A stretch of DNA of 64,000 bases, taken from positions 1,426,001 to 1,490,000 of the forward strand of contig NZ_JAAVJL010000001.1 of the NCBI RefSeq assembly GCF_012863495.1, read 5' to 3'. Position numbers and translations under genes: made by a program. Position 1 is the first letter of the stretch. Each line of letters begins with the position of its first letter. The notes beneath the pieces were generated by a model, which was given only the letters and a program-made list of their open reading frames with translations, did not search any database and was not told the origin of the DNA. This stretch comes from Pseudanabaena yagii GIHE-NHR1 (lineage in GTDB: Bacteria; Cyanobacteriota; Cyanobacteriia; Pseudanabaenales; Pseudanabaenaceae). Positions 933 through 50,936 of the stretch are shown in pieces.

Positions 933-1050
933 CCCTCACCCACTTCGACAGGCTCAGTGCATCGCCTAGCCCCTCTCCCGCAGGAGAAAGGGAACAAGAA
1001 AAAGCTCTTACTCCCCTTCTCCTGCGGGAGAAGGGGTTGGGGGATGAGGG
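933..1050. repeat. Dispersed palindromic repeat (CCCTCACCC ... GGATGAGGG family), copy 1
   Basis: Starts with CCCTCACCC and ends with GGGGGATGAGGGG. It contains the hairpin arms CCCTCTCCCGCAGGAG and CTCCTGCGGGAGAAGGGG. A closely similar copy lies at 46424-46546, and a diverged shorter one lies inside menE at 49708-49790. The small plus-strand ORF across this region is only repeat sequence. Confidence 0.85.
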
Positions 1051-45926: not shown

Positions 45927-46388
45927 ATGAATTCTATTGTCTTGATGGCAGAAGTGCTAACTGATCCAGAACTGCGCCGTACTCCTGATAACCAAAGTTC
46001 GATCGCCTCATTTCTTGTCCAGTTTACAGGCGGACGTGCCGAAGAAGCCCCTTATCGTATCAAAGTTGTGGGCTGGAATAATTTGGCGGACGAGATTATG
46101 GAGAAATATCATAAAGGCGATCAAGTTGTCGTAGAAGGTCGCCTCCGCCTTGATACAGTCGATCGCGGTACTTACAAAGAAAAACGCACTGAATTGGTTG
46201 CCCAACGAGTTCATAGCTTTGGATCTGGCAGCACGGCAAGTATAGCCGCTACACCAACTGCTGTACCTGCGCGTAGTCCTAGAGCAAATCCATCTACAGC
46301 GCCTAGTGCTGCTGTGCCGACATCAAGCTATGTGCCTGTAGCATCTCCCGTAACCGATGCGCCTGACTATGACGATATTCCATTTTAA
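45927..46388 (+). CDS. ssb: Single-stranded DNA-binding protein
   Basis: 153 residues. The OB-fold is at residues 1-100: MNSIVLMAEVLTDPELRRTP, IASFLVQFTGGRAEEAPYRI, KVVGWNNLADEIMEKYHKGD, QVVVEGRLRLDTVDRG. It is followed by a Ser/Pro/Ala-rich flexible linker and the acidic tip DYDDIPF, through which SSB binds partner proteins. The length and tip fit a functional replication/repair SSB. There is no obvious ribosome-binding site before the ATG, as for several genes in this genome. A MITE-like element starts 10 nt after the stop. Confidence 0.92.
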   Translation: MNSIVLMAEVLTDPELRRTPDNQSSIASFLVQFTGGRAEEAPYRIKVVGWNNLADEIMEKYHKGDQVVVEGRLRLDTVDRGTYKEKRTELVAQRVHSFGSGSTASIAATPTAVPARSPRANPSTAPSAAVPTSSYVPVASPVTDAPDYDDIPF

Positions 46389-46397
46389 ATAAAATAA

Positions 46398-46562
46398 CTG
46401 GTGTTACGTGGAAGGTTGTAAAGCCCTCACCCACTTCGGCATGCTCAGTGCATCGCCTAGCCCCTCTCCCGCAGGAGAGGGGAACAAGAAAATAATATGG
46501 GTTTTACTCCCCTTCTCCTGCGGGAGAAGGGGTTGGGGGATGAGGGTTCCACACAACATCAG
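46398..46562. mobile_element. Element A: 165 bp with terminal repeats CTGGTGTTACGTGGAA
   Basis: Left end CTGGTGTTACGTGGAA (46398-46413), right end TTCCACACAACATCAG (46547-46562). The interior is the CCCTCACCC repeat (46424-46546), similar to 933-1050. The same termini with an unrelated interior occur at 55566-55732. Confidence 0.75.
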
Positions 46563-46596
46563 TAAAATAAATAGGGGGCGCAAAAGCGCCCTCTAT

Positions 46597-46914
46597 TTAT
46601 TTAAGAGGCGTTATCCTCTCTAAAACTTGCTCCGCAGATAAAAGCCTTGAAATGCGTACCTGTGCGATCGCAACCTTACTGCCATCATTACTCACAACGC
46701 GATCGCGATTATTCGATAAATCCTCGGGGATCGCCTCTACCGCTTGGATTGACTCTTCAACTTTATAGAGAACCATTTCTTCTCTATCGTCAACCAAATA
46801 AACCCCGATGGGAATTATGATCGGTCTCCGTCGCCAAGCCATTTCGTTCCATAAGCCCGAGACATCCCATACTCTCCGCACCCGCCAACCTTGAGCCAGA
46901 AAAAAGTACTTCAT
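46597..46914 (-). CDS. Conserved hypothetical protein
   Basis: About 105 residues from the Met at 46914 (MKYFFLAQGWRVRRVWDVSG). A longer start at 46953 would read into the palindrome at 46929-46961, so it is rejected. The sequence has mixed strands and helices: MAWRRRPIIIPIGVYLVDDREEMVLYKVE, then a variable acidic part, and VAIAQVRISRLLSAEQVLER at the end. No family name comes to mind; it appears soluble. It is followed upstream by tRNA-Thr, with the palindrome between them. Confidence 0.6.
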   Translation of the reverse strand: MKYFFLAQGWRVRRVWDVSGLWNEMAWRRRPIIIPIGVYLVDDREEMVLYKVEESIQAVEAIPEDLSNNRDRVVSNDGSKVAIAQVRISRLLSAEQVLERITPLK

Positions 46915-46928
46915 AATTAAGCCAGCTA

Positions 46929-46961
46929 TAGAATAATTGGCGCAAAGCGCCAATTATTCTA
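46929..46961. repeat. Perfect hairpin, 15-bp stem and AAA loop
   Basis: TAGAATAATTGGCGC / GCGCCAATTATTCTA around AAA. It lies between tRNA-Thr and the hypothetical gene and may terminate tRNA transcription. Confidence 0.85.
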
Positions 46962-46971
46962 ATGTTATAAG

Positions 46972-47043
46972 AGCCGATGATGAGATTTGAACTCACGGCC
47001 TGCTGATTACGAATCAGCTGCACTACCCCTGTGCTACATCGGC
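46972..47043 (-). tRNA. tRNA-Thr (anticodon CGU)
   Basis: 72 nt on the minus strand. The acceptor stem is GCCGATG / CATCGGC with discriminator T; D-arm GCAC...GTGC; anticodon arm GCTGA-TTCGTAA-TCAGC with anticodon CGT, reading ACG; T-arm GTGAG-TTCAAAT-CTCAT. All stems pair. CCA is not encoded. Confidence 0.95.
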
Positions 47044-47121
47044 AAGTCAAACACAAATTTTTTGCGAAAGCTATTATAGCATCATCGCACATTTTATAAA
47101 ATCTAGAAAAACTTACAGACT

Positions 47122-48810
47122 ATGGGATTTGTCTTAGGTAAATTGGGGTTAGGCTTGCGTCGTATTGTCACCATCGGTTCCTTAAGTATGGGCATCGCGA
47201 TCGCCTGTACTAATATTTTAGCGAAACCAGCCCATAGTGCTGAACAAATCCGCTTTTGGTATCCCCCTGCTGGCGAATTTACCATTTACATCAACGATTT
47301 AGAGCAATTTGCTAAGCAAGGAAAATTGAGTAAGCGCTTAGAGTTCTATCTCGGACGCTTATCCTCGGAACAACAAAATCAACTGCGCGAAACCCTAGCA
47401 ACTCGTTACAACATCAGTCATGTCACGGCGGCTCAGTTTGCCTATTCGCCTATTGGTGAGATCTTGATGCGGCGACTGGGGAGGATTTTGCAGATCACTC
47501 CCCAAGAGAATGGATTTTCAGCGCTCCGAGCAGCTCTGATTCTCTCAGCTCAAAGTGATGAAGGGCTAACTATTCTCAATGTCCTACAAAGATATCCCGT
47601 ACCGATTATTTATCTAGATCTGCCGCGAGGTTTGCAAGCTTATGCGGAAGTTTCACAATTGCTTTACAAAAAGGAACAGGCGATCGCTGCCATCGAAAAA
47701 CAAGCGATCGCTGAATCAAGCCTTAATCCTACTGAAAATAAGTCTCTAGATATTACTAAACCCGATCTGCGCGTGATGGGCAATGTGCAATGGACAAAGG
47801 AAAAATTTACCTATTTACAACGCGATCGCAATGTCAGGATTTCAGCAGATCTATATTTACCCAAGGACTTAACCAAACCTGCACCATTAATTGTGATCTC
47901 CCACGGACTCGCCTCTAATCCTGATACTTTTCAATATCTATCCCAACATCTCGCTTCCTACGGATTTGCCGTCGCAGCACTAGAACACCCGAAAACAGGT
48001 AGTCGTGACTTTGCGGCTTTTCTCTCTGGATTGAGTAAGGCTCCACAGGCTGAAGAAGCAATTCAACGACCTCTTGATGTGAAATATTTATTAGATGAAC
48101 TAGAACAGAAGGTTAAAACTGAGCCAATCTGGCGAGATCGCTTGAATCTTGAACAGGTTGGGTTAATTGGACATTCCCTTGGCGGTTATACAGTTTTAGC
48201 CTTAGGAGGTGCTCAACTAAACTTCAATCAAATTAATCAAGAATGCAGTACCCCTGAACCAAATATCTCTTCATTTAATGTTGCCAAAATTTTGCAATGC
48301 CGCTTTAGCTCCTTAGACACCAATAATACTAATCTCAGCGATCGCCGTATCAAAGCAGTTTTAGCCCTAAACCCTCTTGGTGGAAGCACTTTATTAGGTA
48401 AAGAGGGAATGCAAAATATCAAGATTCCCGTTGCCATTTTTGCTAGTGGTGAGGATATATTTACCCCTGCGGTTCCTGAACAGTTTTTCCCCTTTGTATG
48501 GCTCACGAATCCCCATAAATATTTAGTAACTTTCCCTAAGGGAACGCATTTTTCATTTTTAGAAAGAAGCGATCGCGGGGTGCTGATTGTCCCAGAAAGT
48601 GTAGTAGGTGAGAAGTCAGAATTTACTCATCCCTATACCAAAGCCTTAAGTCTTGCCTTTTTTCAAACCTATCTCAATCAACGTCCCGAATTTACTAGTT
48701 ATTTAACTAATAACTATATCCAAGCGATCGCCTCGCCAAGATTTCCTGCTTCGTTAACTACCAATTTTTCAGAATCACAACTCTTGCAATCCCTAGATTT
48801 AAAACCCTAG
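47122..48810 (+). CDS. DUF1400 and alpha/beta-hydrolase domain protein
   Basis: 562 residues. A signal peptide is present (SLSMGIAIACTNILAKPAHSA). Residues ~40-190 are the cyanobacterial DUF1400 domain (EQIRFWYPPAGEFTIYINDL, LEFYLGRLS). Residues ~220-540 are an alpha/beta hydrolase with the oxyanion strand PLIVISHGLASNPDTFQYLS, nucleophile motif VGLIGHSLGGYTVLALGG, an acid near ASGEDIFTPAVPEQ, and a catalytic His in FPKGTHFSFL. The domain pair resembles predicted dienelactone hydrolases or PAF-acetylhydrolases. It is likely a periplasmic esterase; the substrate is unknown. Confidence 0.88.
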   Translation: MGFVLGKLGLGLRRIVTIGSLSMGIAIACTNILAKPAHSAEQIRFWYPPAGEFTIYINDLEQFAKQGKLSKRLEFYLGRLSSEQQNQLRETLATRYNISHVTAAQFAYSPIGEILMRRLGRILQITPQENGFSALRAALILSAQSDEGLTILNVLQRYPVPIIYLDLPRGLQAYAEVSQLLYKKEQAIAAIEKQAIAESSLNPTENKSLDITKPDLRVMGNVQWTKEKFTYLQRDRNVRISADLYLPKDLTKPAPLIVISHGLASNPDTFQYLSQHLASYGFAVAALEHPKTGSRDFAAFLSGLSKAPQAEEAIQRPLDVKYLLDELEQKVKTEPIWRDRLNLEQVGLIGHSLGGYTVLALGGAQLNFNQINQECSTPEPNISSFNVAKILQCRFSSLDTNNTNLSDRRIKAVLALNPLGGSTLLGKEGMQNIKIPVAIFASGEDIFTPAVPEQFFPFVWLTNPHKYLVTFPKGTHFSFLERSDRGVLIVPESVVGEKSEFTHPYTKALSLAFFQTYLNQRPEFTSYLTNNYIQAIASPRFPASLTTNFSESQLLQSLDLKP

Positions 48811-48848
48811 ATTTAAAATAATGGCGATGCTTTGCACCATCTCCAATT

Positions 48849-49217
48849 TTATTTCTGCAAACGCTTGAGTTCATCCTGTAGAGCTTGAACTTTGCTTTTT
48901 AGCTGATCTACATCATTCACTGTTTGATTAGAGCTACCATCCTCTTCATCATCAATGGAAATAGTGCGGGGTTCGTCTTTGCCTGTAGGATTTGGAGAGC
49001 TTTCACTGATTGGTTTTTGAGAGTTTTTGACAAGGTCATCTACAAATTTTCTAGCTTCCTCAGTGGTCATTTCACCTCTTTCCACTAATTCATCAGCCAG
49101 TTTACTAGCTTGAGTGCGGAGTTCATTGAGAGTCTCGCCTGCTTTTTCACCTGCGACCGTCGCCAAGCCTAGACCTAGATAAAATGCTTTTTGGACGATG
49201 CCACCAAATGGATTCAT
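48849..49217 (-). CDS. Phasin-like coiled-coil protein
   Basis: About 122 residues. It starts MNPFGGIVQKAFYLGLGLATVAGEKAGETLNELRT and continues with VERGEMTTEEARKFVDDLVK, a pattern seen in phasin-like, polyhydroxyalkanoate-granule-associated proteins. It ends in a short coiled coil (VDQLKSKVQALQDELKRL). The start is decided by the ribosome-binding site: AGGAG is only 2 nt from the ATG at 49223 but 8 nt from the ATG at 49217. A granule-binding role is an inference. It is divergent from menE. Confidence 0.72.
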   Translation of the reverse strand: MNPFGGIVQKAFYLGLGLATVAGEKAGETLNELRTQASKLADELVERGEMTTEEARKFVDDLVKNSQKPISESSPNPTGKDEPRTISIDDEEDGSSNQTVNDVDQLKSKVQALQDELKRLQK

Positions 49218-49312
49218 TGCCATTACTCCTAATGTAATAAATTTAGTATGGGTAGTACAAAACACCACTCATCCTTGAATTCATTACATTATATCGTGAT
49301 CAATCTGAAATC

Positions 49313-50878
49313 ATGCAATTTCCCAATTGGCTATCGCAAAGAGCTATTCAAAAAAAAGAAGCGATCGCACTTATCTTCAAGTCTCCTAATCATCCAATAG
49401 CACATTGGACATATGCCCAATTGGAAACTGAAGTTAATCGTTGGGTAGAGCATTTACAATGCTTGGGGATAAAATCAGGCGATCGCGTTGGTTTGTTACT
49501 AACTAATCAGCCCCAATACATCATTTTGGTTCATGGGTTGGTGAAATGTGAAGCCGTAGCTGTTTTTTTAAATATTCGCCTTACGGTTGATGAATTACGT
49601 TGGCAATTAGAAGATAGTCAGACTAAATATCTTATTTGTGATGAATTTACTCAGTTAATAGCTCATGATTTGGGAAGTAATATAGAGAACTTAATAGTTG
49701 AGAATTGCCCTCACCCCCTAGCCCCCTCTCCCGATGGGAGAGGGGGGGCAGGAAGATTTTCTCGCTCTGAGCGAAGGTTGGGGGTAGATGGCTTACTTAA
49801 CTTAGAGGATATACAGGGGATTTTCTATACTTCGGGAACAACTGGAAAACCCAAAGCAGTTCCCTTAACCTATAGTAATCATTTTTATAGTGCGATCGCT
49901 TCAACTTTAAATCTAGGCACTTATGAAGATGACAACTGGTTACTATGTATGCCTCTATTTCATGTGGGGGGACTAGCGATCGCATGGCGGAGTGTGATTA
50001 ATGGAACTGCGATTACACTGTTACCGAAGTTTGAAGAGCAGGAAGTACTAGAAGCGATCGCTAATGAAAAAGTGACGATCATTTCCCTTGTGCCGACCAT
50101 GCTGACTCGCTTATTAAAGCATCCCCACTGGCAAAATCTTCAAAATCCACGTGCAATTCTCTTGGGTGGCGCACCTGCTAGTAAGGAATTAATTGAGCAA
50201 TGTCTGCAATTAAATTTACCGATTATGCCCACCTATGGCATGACAGAAACGGCTTCTCAAGTTACGACATTGTTACCTCATGAGGTCGCTCTCAAACAAG
50301 GTTCTTCGGGTTTACCTCTATTCGGCAATCGATTTCGCATAGTAAATTTAGATGATCCTCAACAAGAAGTTCCCATTGGTGAAGTTGGGCAAATCCTTGT
50401 TCAAGGAGCAAGTGTGATGAATGGCTATCTCCATCAGTTAGAGAATAATGCGGTTAAGAATGGTTGGCTATATACAGGGGATCTTGGTTATTGCGATCGC
50501 GATGGCTATCTCTATGTGGTCAGTCGTCGCTCCGACTTGATTATCAGTGGTGGTGAAAATATTTATCCTACGGAAATCGAATCAATTTTGTTAGAACATC
50601 CTGCAATTTTAGAAGTTTGTGTGGTGGGCATTAGCGATCGCGAATGGGGCGAGGTCGTGGCAGCAGTAATGGTGACTAGAGAAGAGTTATCACTGGATGA
50701 TGTCAGAAGCTTTTGTGAACAAAGATCGCTAGCTCGATATAAATTGCCAAAATCTATTCATATTTGGGAATCTTTGCCAAAAACAGCTTCGGGCAAGCTA
50801 TTACGCCAAAAGATTCGCGAACATTTAGATTGTAGTGTTGATATTCCCGCCGAAGGTGGGAATACCAACACTGTATAA
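49313..50878 (+). CDS. menE: 2-succinylbenzoate-CoA ligase with in-frame repeat insertion
   Basis: 521 residues. MenE activates o-succinylbenzoate with CoA in phylloquinone synthesis, needed for photosystem I. ANL-superfamily motifs are in order: IFYTSGTTGKPKAVPLTYSN (P-loop), PTYGMTETASQV, GWLYTGDLGYCDRDGYLYVV, RRSDLIISGGENIYPTEIES, and the catalytic Lys in LPKTASGKLLRQ. Similarity to MenE is strong through the whole length. Residues ~133-160 (CPHPLAPSPDGRGG and following) are a translated copy of the CCCTCACCC palindromic repeat, which lengthens the protein by ~28 residues without a frameshift. The insertion lies before the P-loop, probably in a surface loop, so activity is likely kept. Confidence 0.88.
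   Translation: MQFPNWLSQRAIQKKEAIALIFKSPNHPIAHWTYAQLETEVNRWVEHLQCLGIKSGDRVGLLLTNQPQYIILVHGLVKCEAVAVFLNIRLTVDELRWQLEDSQTKYLICDEFTQLIAHDLGSNIENLIVENCPHPLAPSPDGRGGAGRFSRSERRLGVDGLLNLEDIQGIFYTSGTTGKPKAVPLTYSNHFYSAIASTLNLGTYEDDNWLLCMPLFHVGGLAIAWRSVINGTAITLLPKFEEQEVLEAIANEKVTIISLVPTMLTRLLKHPHWQNLQNPRAILLGGAPASKELIEQCLQLNLPIMPTYGMTETASQVTTLLPHEVALKQGSSGLPLFGNRFRIVNLDDPQQEVPIGEVGQILVQGASVMNGYLHQLENNAVKNGWLYTGDLGYCDRDGYLYVVSRRSDLIISGGENIYPTEIESILLEHPAILEVCVVGISDREWGEVVAAVMVTREELSLDDVRSFCEQRSLARYKLPKSIHIWESLPKTASGKLLRQKIREHLDCSVDIPAEGGNTNTV
49708..49790. repeat. Dispersed palindromic repeat inserted in frame in menE
   Basis: It begins CCCTCACCCCCTAGCCCCC, with hairpin GCCCCCTCTCCC / GGGAGAGGGGG around GAT, and ends near GTTGGGGGTAG. 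It belongs to the family at 933-1050 and 46424-46546, but the middle differs. Length is close to 84 nt, a multiple of three. Confidence 0.8.
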
Positions 50879-50936
50879 CTGCTGAGGGGATTAGTTACAA
50901 TTAGAGGTAGCTGTATTATGGATAAAAATCATACCC

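Follow-up and report, generated by a model that had tools for sequence, protein, structure and literature searches.

The window, by which is meant the whole stretch of 64,000 nucleotides analysed from Pseudanabaena yagii GIHE-NHR1, contains an open reading frame whose product is assigned to MenE by a profile search, with 430.9 bits against TIGR01923 (cut-off 330.15) and a match of 256.4 bits to the AMP-binding family PF00501. The gene is that of an enzyme for vitamin K1 (phylloquinone). The best solved relatives of the protein are the 2-succinylbenzoate-CoA ligases 5x8f and 5buq, and the alignment with them has a 16-residue gap at a palindromic element that is carried within the gene (Table 1). 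HIP1 sites (GCGATCGC) and the gene content fit a cyanobacterial host.

Table 1. Features of the menE locus and further full copies of the element in the window.
Feature	Position	Strand	Basis
menE, o-succinylbenzoate-CoA ligase, 521 aa	49313..50878	+	ORF list, TIGR01923, PF00501
In-frame palindromic element of the CCCTCACCC family, 84 nt, predicted to encode (C)PHPLAPSPDGRGGAGRFSRSERRLGVDG	49708..49791	+	sequence, covariance model
Element hairpin 1, perfect 11-bp arms (49722-49732 / 49736-49746), 3-nt loop	49722..49746	.	sequence
Element hairpin 2, degenerate (perfect in the G022 orthologue)	49760..49777	.	by eye
Decayed right end of the element (family consensus GGGGCTAGGGGTGAGGG)	49776..49791	.	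consensus, covariance model
Codons of the MenE nucleotide-binding loop, YTSGTTGKPK, 34 nt downstream of the element	49826..49855	+	sequence
Intergenic full copy, 24-nt second repeat nested after CCCTCACCC	933..1050	.	sequence, covariance model
Intergenic full copy, same nested 24-nt repeat as 933-1050	46424..46546	.	sequence, covariance model

The element in menE is a worn copy of its family, since it scores 27.9 bits (E 1.6e-4 for the window) with a covariance model trained on 13 other copies of the host genome, menE being excluded, against 108 bits for the genome's best copies. Its 84 nucleotides are the length of 28 codons and touch codons 132-160, and the peptide given in Table 1 is what the open frame would encode. 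An earlier note on this DNA had placed the repeat in frame ahead of the nucleotide-binding loop of MenE, and both points hold; only the right-hand limit, noted as 49790, was one base short. Exact CCCTCACCC cores occur three times in the window against an expected 0.18, and a count of three was reached in none of 100 shuffles. The RNA fold of the menE copy has a z of -2.34, with 3 of 200 shuffles equally good, and in an Rfam search over 46000-50900 only a tRNA reached the gathering score.

The number of residues that the element contributes to the protein is smaller than its length suggests. From the YLxxD strand to GTTG there are 73 residues in this MenE against 59-63 in the seven nearest proteins that are not carriers, giving a net lengthening of about 10-14 residues and not the 28 or so proposed in the earlier note. 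In the other six non-carriers the same linker measures 45, 66, 71, 71, 86 and 93 residues, and its length thus varies with or without the repeat. Unrelated loops of equal length in related proteins had been named in advance as evidence against an insertion; evidence of this kind exists in part, with unrelated linkers at that place, those of the seven near relatives being shorter and those of the others ranging from 45 to 93 residues. Alignment with related MenE proteins had been proposed as a way to fix the boundaries of the insertion, and it reveals no visible target duplication at menE, the loops of the non-carriers aligning too poorly to fix either those boundaries or the pre-insertion site. 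In an AlphaFold model of MenE (mean pLDDT 72.4, from an alignment of 23 rows) the pLDDT is below 50 at residues 136-190, a dip that includes the conserved loop, and residues 132-163 have no secondary structure. The model is weak around the linker, and all that is drawn from it is that it agrees with a flexible loop.

The linker was read in 24 genomes of the genus, G004 and G006 having no close match to menE (G and L numbers are used here as handles for genomes and loci). By eye, an element lies at the same site in seven genomes including the host, is decayed in four and is not recognisable in 11, and another palindrome is found in the remaining two. These two linkers, in G018 (L017) and G024 (L023), hold unrelated perfect palindromes with arms of 16 and 25 bases (by eye). 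The carriers have MenE proteins 73-94% identical to that of the host; the element takes a one-hairpin form in G013 and is expanded in tandem in G012. The best menE tree, calculated with the loop removed, needs two changes to account for the carriers, and a single carrier clade gives a p value of 0.417 in the AU test, so that one origin is not rejected.

Full copies of the family consist of two hairpins in inverted order between the ends CCCTCACCCCC and GGGGGTGAGGG, which form terminal inverted repeats as expected of a MITE, and are mostly 87-109 nt long without a nested repeat; one-hairpin forms of 51 nt also occur. The inverted order of the two hairpin units and the spacer between them are the layout of a REPIN, and a palindromic repeat of about 50-150 nt in many copies per genome is also what is expected of an RPE-like element. 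A GTAG or CGTC tag is absent from both ends of the family consensus. The two intergenic copies of the window are without a long spanning open reading frame. Both of them, like L047 and L060, carry a 24-nt second repeat (about ACTTCGACAGGCTCAGTGCATCG), nested at the same point beside the CCCTCACCC end. Several intergenic copies that are much alike (L047, L051, L054, L056, L057 and L060) sit within a larger inverted repeat, about TTACGTGGAA...TTCCACGTAA, and these too are without a long spanning frame.

Across the host genome the covariance model returned 83 rows, which reduce to 51 places after the strands are merged. With the six weakest (E 0.004-0.009) left out, 45 places were sorted by their ends into 35 members of the CCCTCACCC family and 10 copies from sister families, most of them of CTAAGCCCCC types. 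At least 36 family copies are therefore recognised, made up of these 35 and the menE copy, which is absent from the model's rows; the figure is a lower bound because 150 of 1481 candidates were scored, and it excludes a partial copy (L041) that came from a pattern search alone. Three of the 36 are the right halves of copies split by an insertion sequence. An insertion sequence with the same 376-codon reading frame lies in the 3' arm of hairpin 1 within three copies (L037, L042 and L052, with the right halves L087, L089 and L090). The family is present in all 26 genomes of the genus, the best 150 of 667 to 1935 candidates having been scored per genome, in five of nine genomes of the same taxonomic family outside the genus (E 1e-5) and in 35 of 194 genomes sampled across the phylum, the genus included (E 1e-8 and stricter filters). 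The host genome holds three Y1-transposase genes (PF01797), none of which has CCCTCA/TGAGGG within about 1.2 kb, and no autonomous partner or moving enzyme was found beside the repeat among them.

Twelve of the 36 recognised copies, menE included, lie in frame in long open reading frames of 469-1133 codons (measured from stop to stop, some being clipped at the end of the locus). The hosts are a DUF559 protein on a small contig, an nSTAND1-TPR protein, RqcH/NFACT, HsdR, CobB, CobN, a UvrD-like helicase, an nSTAND1-WD40 protein, an N6 methylase, RecJ, Mfd and MenE; two further copies that touch an N-terminus are not counted among them. For nine of the 12, a protein-family match spans the element or flanks it on both sides, and in the nSTAND1-TPR protein there is a family match on one side and a TPR match below the cut-off on the other. 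The DUF559 and N6-methylase proteins, which have matches upstream only, are the weakest cases because the element follows the sole domain and is itself followed by tails of just 58 and 72 codons, respectively. The earlier note had concluded from menE that the repeat moves or is copied into genes. The presence of the family inside many genes bears this out, but the menE copy by itself shows no recent movement, being recognisable in seven and decayed in four more of the 24 genomes. Beyond the genus's own family, 20 copies were sampled among the top-scoring rows of seven genomes, and eight of them lie in a reading frame that extends on both sides for 40 codons or more; similar frames of one genome account for three of these eight, and like frames of another for two. 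The three copies in G180 (L259, L260 and L261) occupy an equal position in three similar reading frames.

The same sites are also occupied in close relatives. The flanks of 11 in-frame sites were searched in four relatives and 31 stretches of nine genes were read, the DUF559 and N6-methylase sites lying outside this comparison. For every one of the nine genes, one or more of the relatives carry the element at the corresponding position; for hsdR this is a single relative, with a flank that is 98% identical. The 31 sites comprise 26 with the CCCTCACCC family, some of them decayed, two with another palindrome family (cobN and RqcH of G022), one with only 24 nt (the uvrD-like gene of G023) and two that are interrupted, namely recJ of G021 and G023, where the site is broken by 1.6-2.2 kb containing other reading frames. 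At these breaks (L146 in G021, L147 in G023) the C-terminal half of recJ runs on in frame from a new N-terminal part, and one of the frames in the interruption is, we presume, Uma2-like.

Three of these sites, here termed slots, were followed over the whole genus by seeking CobN, the UvrD-like helicase and CobB in 26 genomes. This gave 75 loci, of which 73 were readable, cobN of G009 and cobB of G013 being dropped as no read-through was possible, and the 73 slots contain no stop in 2271 codons. The cobN slot (n=24; families by eye) holds the CCCTCACCC family in 11 genomes, a GAGATCCCCCC/TTTATAAGGGGG family in eight, a GATCCCCCTCAATCCCCC family in three and two further hairpins in one genome each; a rough count gives eight changes of slot family on a poorly resolved cobN tree with 15 of 21 inner branches open. 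The cobN slots of G001 (L170) and G002 (L169) are an identical 114 nt in two species. Since the MenE proteins of G001 and G000 have an identity of only about 60%, a transfer of cobN together with its element is indicated.

The cobB slot (n=24) retains the CCCTCACCC family in 22 genomes, shortened or decayed in part of them, with another palindrome in G011 and none recognisable in G001. The uvrD-like slot (n=25; families by eye) is filled in 10 genomes, reduced to a short piece in nine and occupied by other letters in six. Short pieces match both ends of the element joined together in G013 (17/18), G006 (16/18) and G014 (15/21), with none of 5000 shuffles as good. The match is less sure in G008, G010 and G017 (p 0.001-0.002) and in G023 and G025 (p 0.035), and three outgroup rows give p 0.07-0.25; three rows exceed the length limit of this test, including G016, in which the whole left end is retained (by eye). 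The pieces of G008, G010 and G017 may be pre-insertion sequence. In G017 and G020 the flanks agree at 867 of 900 bases and the slots differ by 81 nt, which implies that gain or loss can be recent. Neither at menE nor at the uvrD-like slots is a target duplication seen, and no clean empty site came to light.

Whether the element is conserved as protein or as DNA was judged from fourfold sites whose first two bases match, compared between slot and flanks in pairs of genomes. In menE, the fourfold identity is 221/248 = 0.89 in the slot against 0.62 in the flanks and is higher in the slot in 21 of 21 pairs among the seven carriers. The corresponding values are 0.83 and 0.59 for cobN (36 of 36 pairs), 0.71 and 0.47 for the uvrD-like gene (35 of 39) and 0.71 and 0.51 for cobB (128 of 147). 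Pairs with flanks at least 97% identical in amino acids were omitted (6 of 45 for the uvrD-like gene, 1 of 153 for cobB), as were the near-identical G025 rows and the shortened cobB slots; pairs share branches and the counts are not independent, and they do not rest on MAFFT alignments, which lose the hairpin register. The amino acids follow the reverse course: identity in menE is 0.66 in the element against 0.81 in the flanks (lower in 17 of 21 pairs), and between slot and flanks it is 0.74 and 0.94 in cobN, 0.66 and 0.89 in the uvrD-like gene and 0.51 and 0.90 in cobB, so that pooled identity is lower in the slot in all four genes. The slots are richer in C and G than the flanks, and the identity expected at saturation from slot composition is 0.60 for menE (flanks 0.30), 0.46 for cobN, 0.50 for the uvrD-like gene and 0.45 for cobB (flanks 0.27-0.30). 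After correction for composition, the slot still retains a larger fraction of the remaining range than the flanks do, in four of four genes. Silent sites that are more alike together with amino acids that are less alike indicate that the sequence of the element is kept or renewed as DNA. The pattern points the opposite way from selection on the peptide, and in none of the four genes are amino acids kept beyond what the silent sites predict, as they would be in a domesticated segment.

Some of the change within the slots is matched between hairpin arms. In cobB of G019 both arms are altered, C to A with G to T, and the change in the 3' arm costs a Gly to Trp replacement if G020 represents the older state; separate matched changes are found in cobB of G015. 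Broken arms also exist, for example in hairpin 1 of cobB in G003, G014 and G015. A permutation of arm pairing equalled the observed pairing in 0 of 2000 trials in four of six sets and in 17 and 20 of 2000 in the cobN sets; the test favours the observed arms because its register was set by the observed pairing, and it is not relied on.

The reading preferred here, with a probability of roughly 0.75, is that a REPIN-like small palindromic element, readable in frame at many sites, is ancestral in the MenE linker, inherited there and renewed as DNA. It builds on what is seen across the genus: elements residing in frame, sites held in common, turnover of their content, remnants left in some of the genomes and silent sites that are alike. 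An ancestor of the species group would have gained the element, by transposition or template copying, in the flexible linker that leads from the N-terminal part to the nucleotide-binding loop. The linker would have tolerated the element, which was then, probably after a single event, inherited with the gene. Such sites behave as slots, in which relatives retain an element at its codon position whilst its sequence, length, reading frame and even family change. Loss may proceed by in-frame deletion between the palindrome ends, leaving short remnants, and one hairpin arm may be corrected from the other. Renewal from other copies, through conversion or a repeated insertion into that tolerant linker, is the most likely cause of the similarity as DNA. 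A bolder and more tentative extension, which we would put at somewhat under even odds, treats the slots as inherited landing places in core genes where several palindrome families swap as DNA, their arms mutually corrected and the peptide a mere passenger, in what would be a concerted evolution of selfish coding palindromes.

Other explanations must be set beside this. Separate insertions, lineage by lineage, into the same few tolerant linkers, with the older copies never renewed, would produce the differing families at one cobN slot and, in menE, the other palindromes that G018 and G024 have in the linker, but spacer and flank letters are common to species groups, as in cobB (by eye), and such a history appears rather doubtful. 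Selection on a hairpin structure in mRNA or DNA, for instance for pausing, protection or binding, draws support from the many arms that are still complementary, from the matched arm changes of cobB and from the RNA fold of the menE copy. Such selection would also give silent-site similarity, and the tests used here do not separate it from renewal. The genes nevertheless stay open in relatives without the element or with unrelated linkers, and hairpin 2 of menE is degenerate; hairpin selection is considered unlikely.

The earlier note had called the repeat domesticated, a term that would mean that MenE recruited the peptide and retained it for a function. The persistence of the element at its site in species with MenE proteins as little as 73% identical could be read in this way, and menE does stay open, which agrees with the view that the repeat is tolerated. 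The silent-site and amino-acid identities given above run against a retained function, as do the four decayed relatives, the tandem expansion, the one-hairpin version and, with the weight that a weak model allows, the low pLDDT and lack of secondary structure in the AlphaFold prediction; domestication is accordingly regarded as very improbable. For a chance run of C/G-rich coding sequence or an assembly error only the low complexity of the arms could be cited, and with the excess of exact cores in the window and the same copy present in orthologues from other assemblies, the relatives refute it and practically nothing is left of this possibility.

The best-known protein-coding palindromes are those of Rickettsia and Wolbachia, and reports from elsewhere are scattered. 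In this cyanobacterial genus they are a permanent presence, in genes for repair, cobalamin and quinone. Its filled, decayed and shortened sites, together with those that have a different filling, form a natural series with which the frame-preserving entry and exit of repeats, and their upkeep by conversion as against hairpin selection, become testable. There is also a warning for annotation, as low-complexity peptides such as LTPSPSPxGEG can stem from DNA elements rather than from protein domains.

The element can be compared with several known systems. Wolbachia reportedly has similar in-frame protein-coding palindromes. In Nostoc, Elhai et al. are said to have described in 2008 small dispersed repeats of 21-27 nt that are very small, mobile and sometimes nested; the CCCTCACCC family, at 51-109 nt, is larger than this, and the comparison is by description only. 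Among the matches listed in a search of open-licence papers by title and the start of the abstract, there were no published in-frame cyanobacterial palindromes or such repeats of Pseudanabaena. In-frame coding palindromes are thus a known kind of element, and the literature searched yielded no match for the genus-wide cyanobacterial slots, for the swapping of families or for the silent-site pattern.

Intrastrand triplex motifs, which are abundant in cyanobacteria, are alike by description only, as G/C-rich repeats of cyanobacterial genomes that can fold as a single strand (PMC4666352). Enterobacterial MITEs such as ERIC and YPAL are small inverted-repeat elements that form in-frame fusions with conserved genes; the CCCTCACCC family differs from them in sequence and host, and shared slots are unmentioned for ERIC and YPAL in the part of the source consulted (PMC2229807). 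REPINs, or REP doublets, which are associated with RAYT transposases, share the two hairpin units in inverted order, the variable spacer and the many copies (PMC3116915); unlike them, the family here has no Y1-transposase gene flanked by the repeat in the host genome, and a third of its recognised copies (12/36) lie within reading frames. Many intragenic REPs occur in repair genes, including that of the UvrD/REP helicase, one recB site is shared by two Xanthomonas, and GTAG REPs are also found in cyanobacteria (PMC3733652). These GTAG/CGTC REPs resemble the present family in their in-frame inserts of 20-30 residues and their repair-gene hosts (PMC3733652), whereas here there is no end tag, ten genes share sites with relatives, four were tracked over the genus and families turn over.

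The Rickettsia palindromic elements (Ogata et al. 2000, 2002) lie in frame in 19 Rickettsia reading frames, and one host, a guanylate kinase, stays active (PMC2229807). The likeness extends to a length of about 100 nt, a presence both within and between genes, in-frame insertion in conserved proteins and apparent tolerance (PMC2229807, PMC6649704); on the present side, in-frame insertion in conserved protein genes is seen in the 12 host genes and in the 73 slots free of stops. The comparison is by description only, and the system described here differs in its phylum, in its conserved genus-wide slots and in its family exchange. The Rickettsia elements lose their repeat identity over time (PMC6649704), whereas the CCCTCACCC family as a group loses identity less than the silent sites of its hosts.
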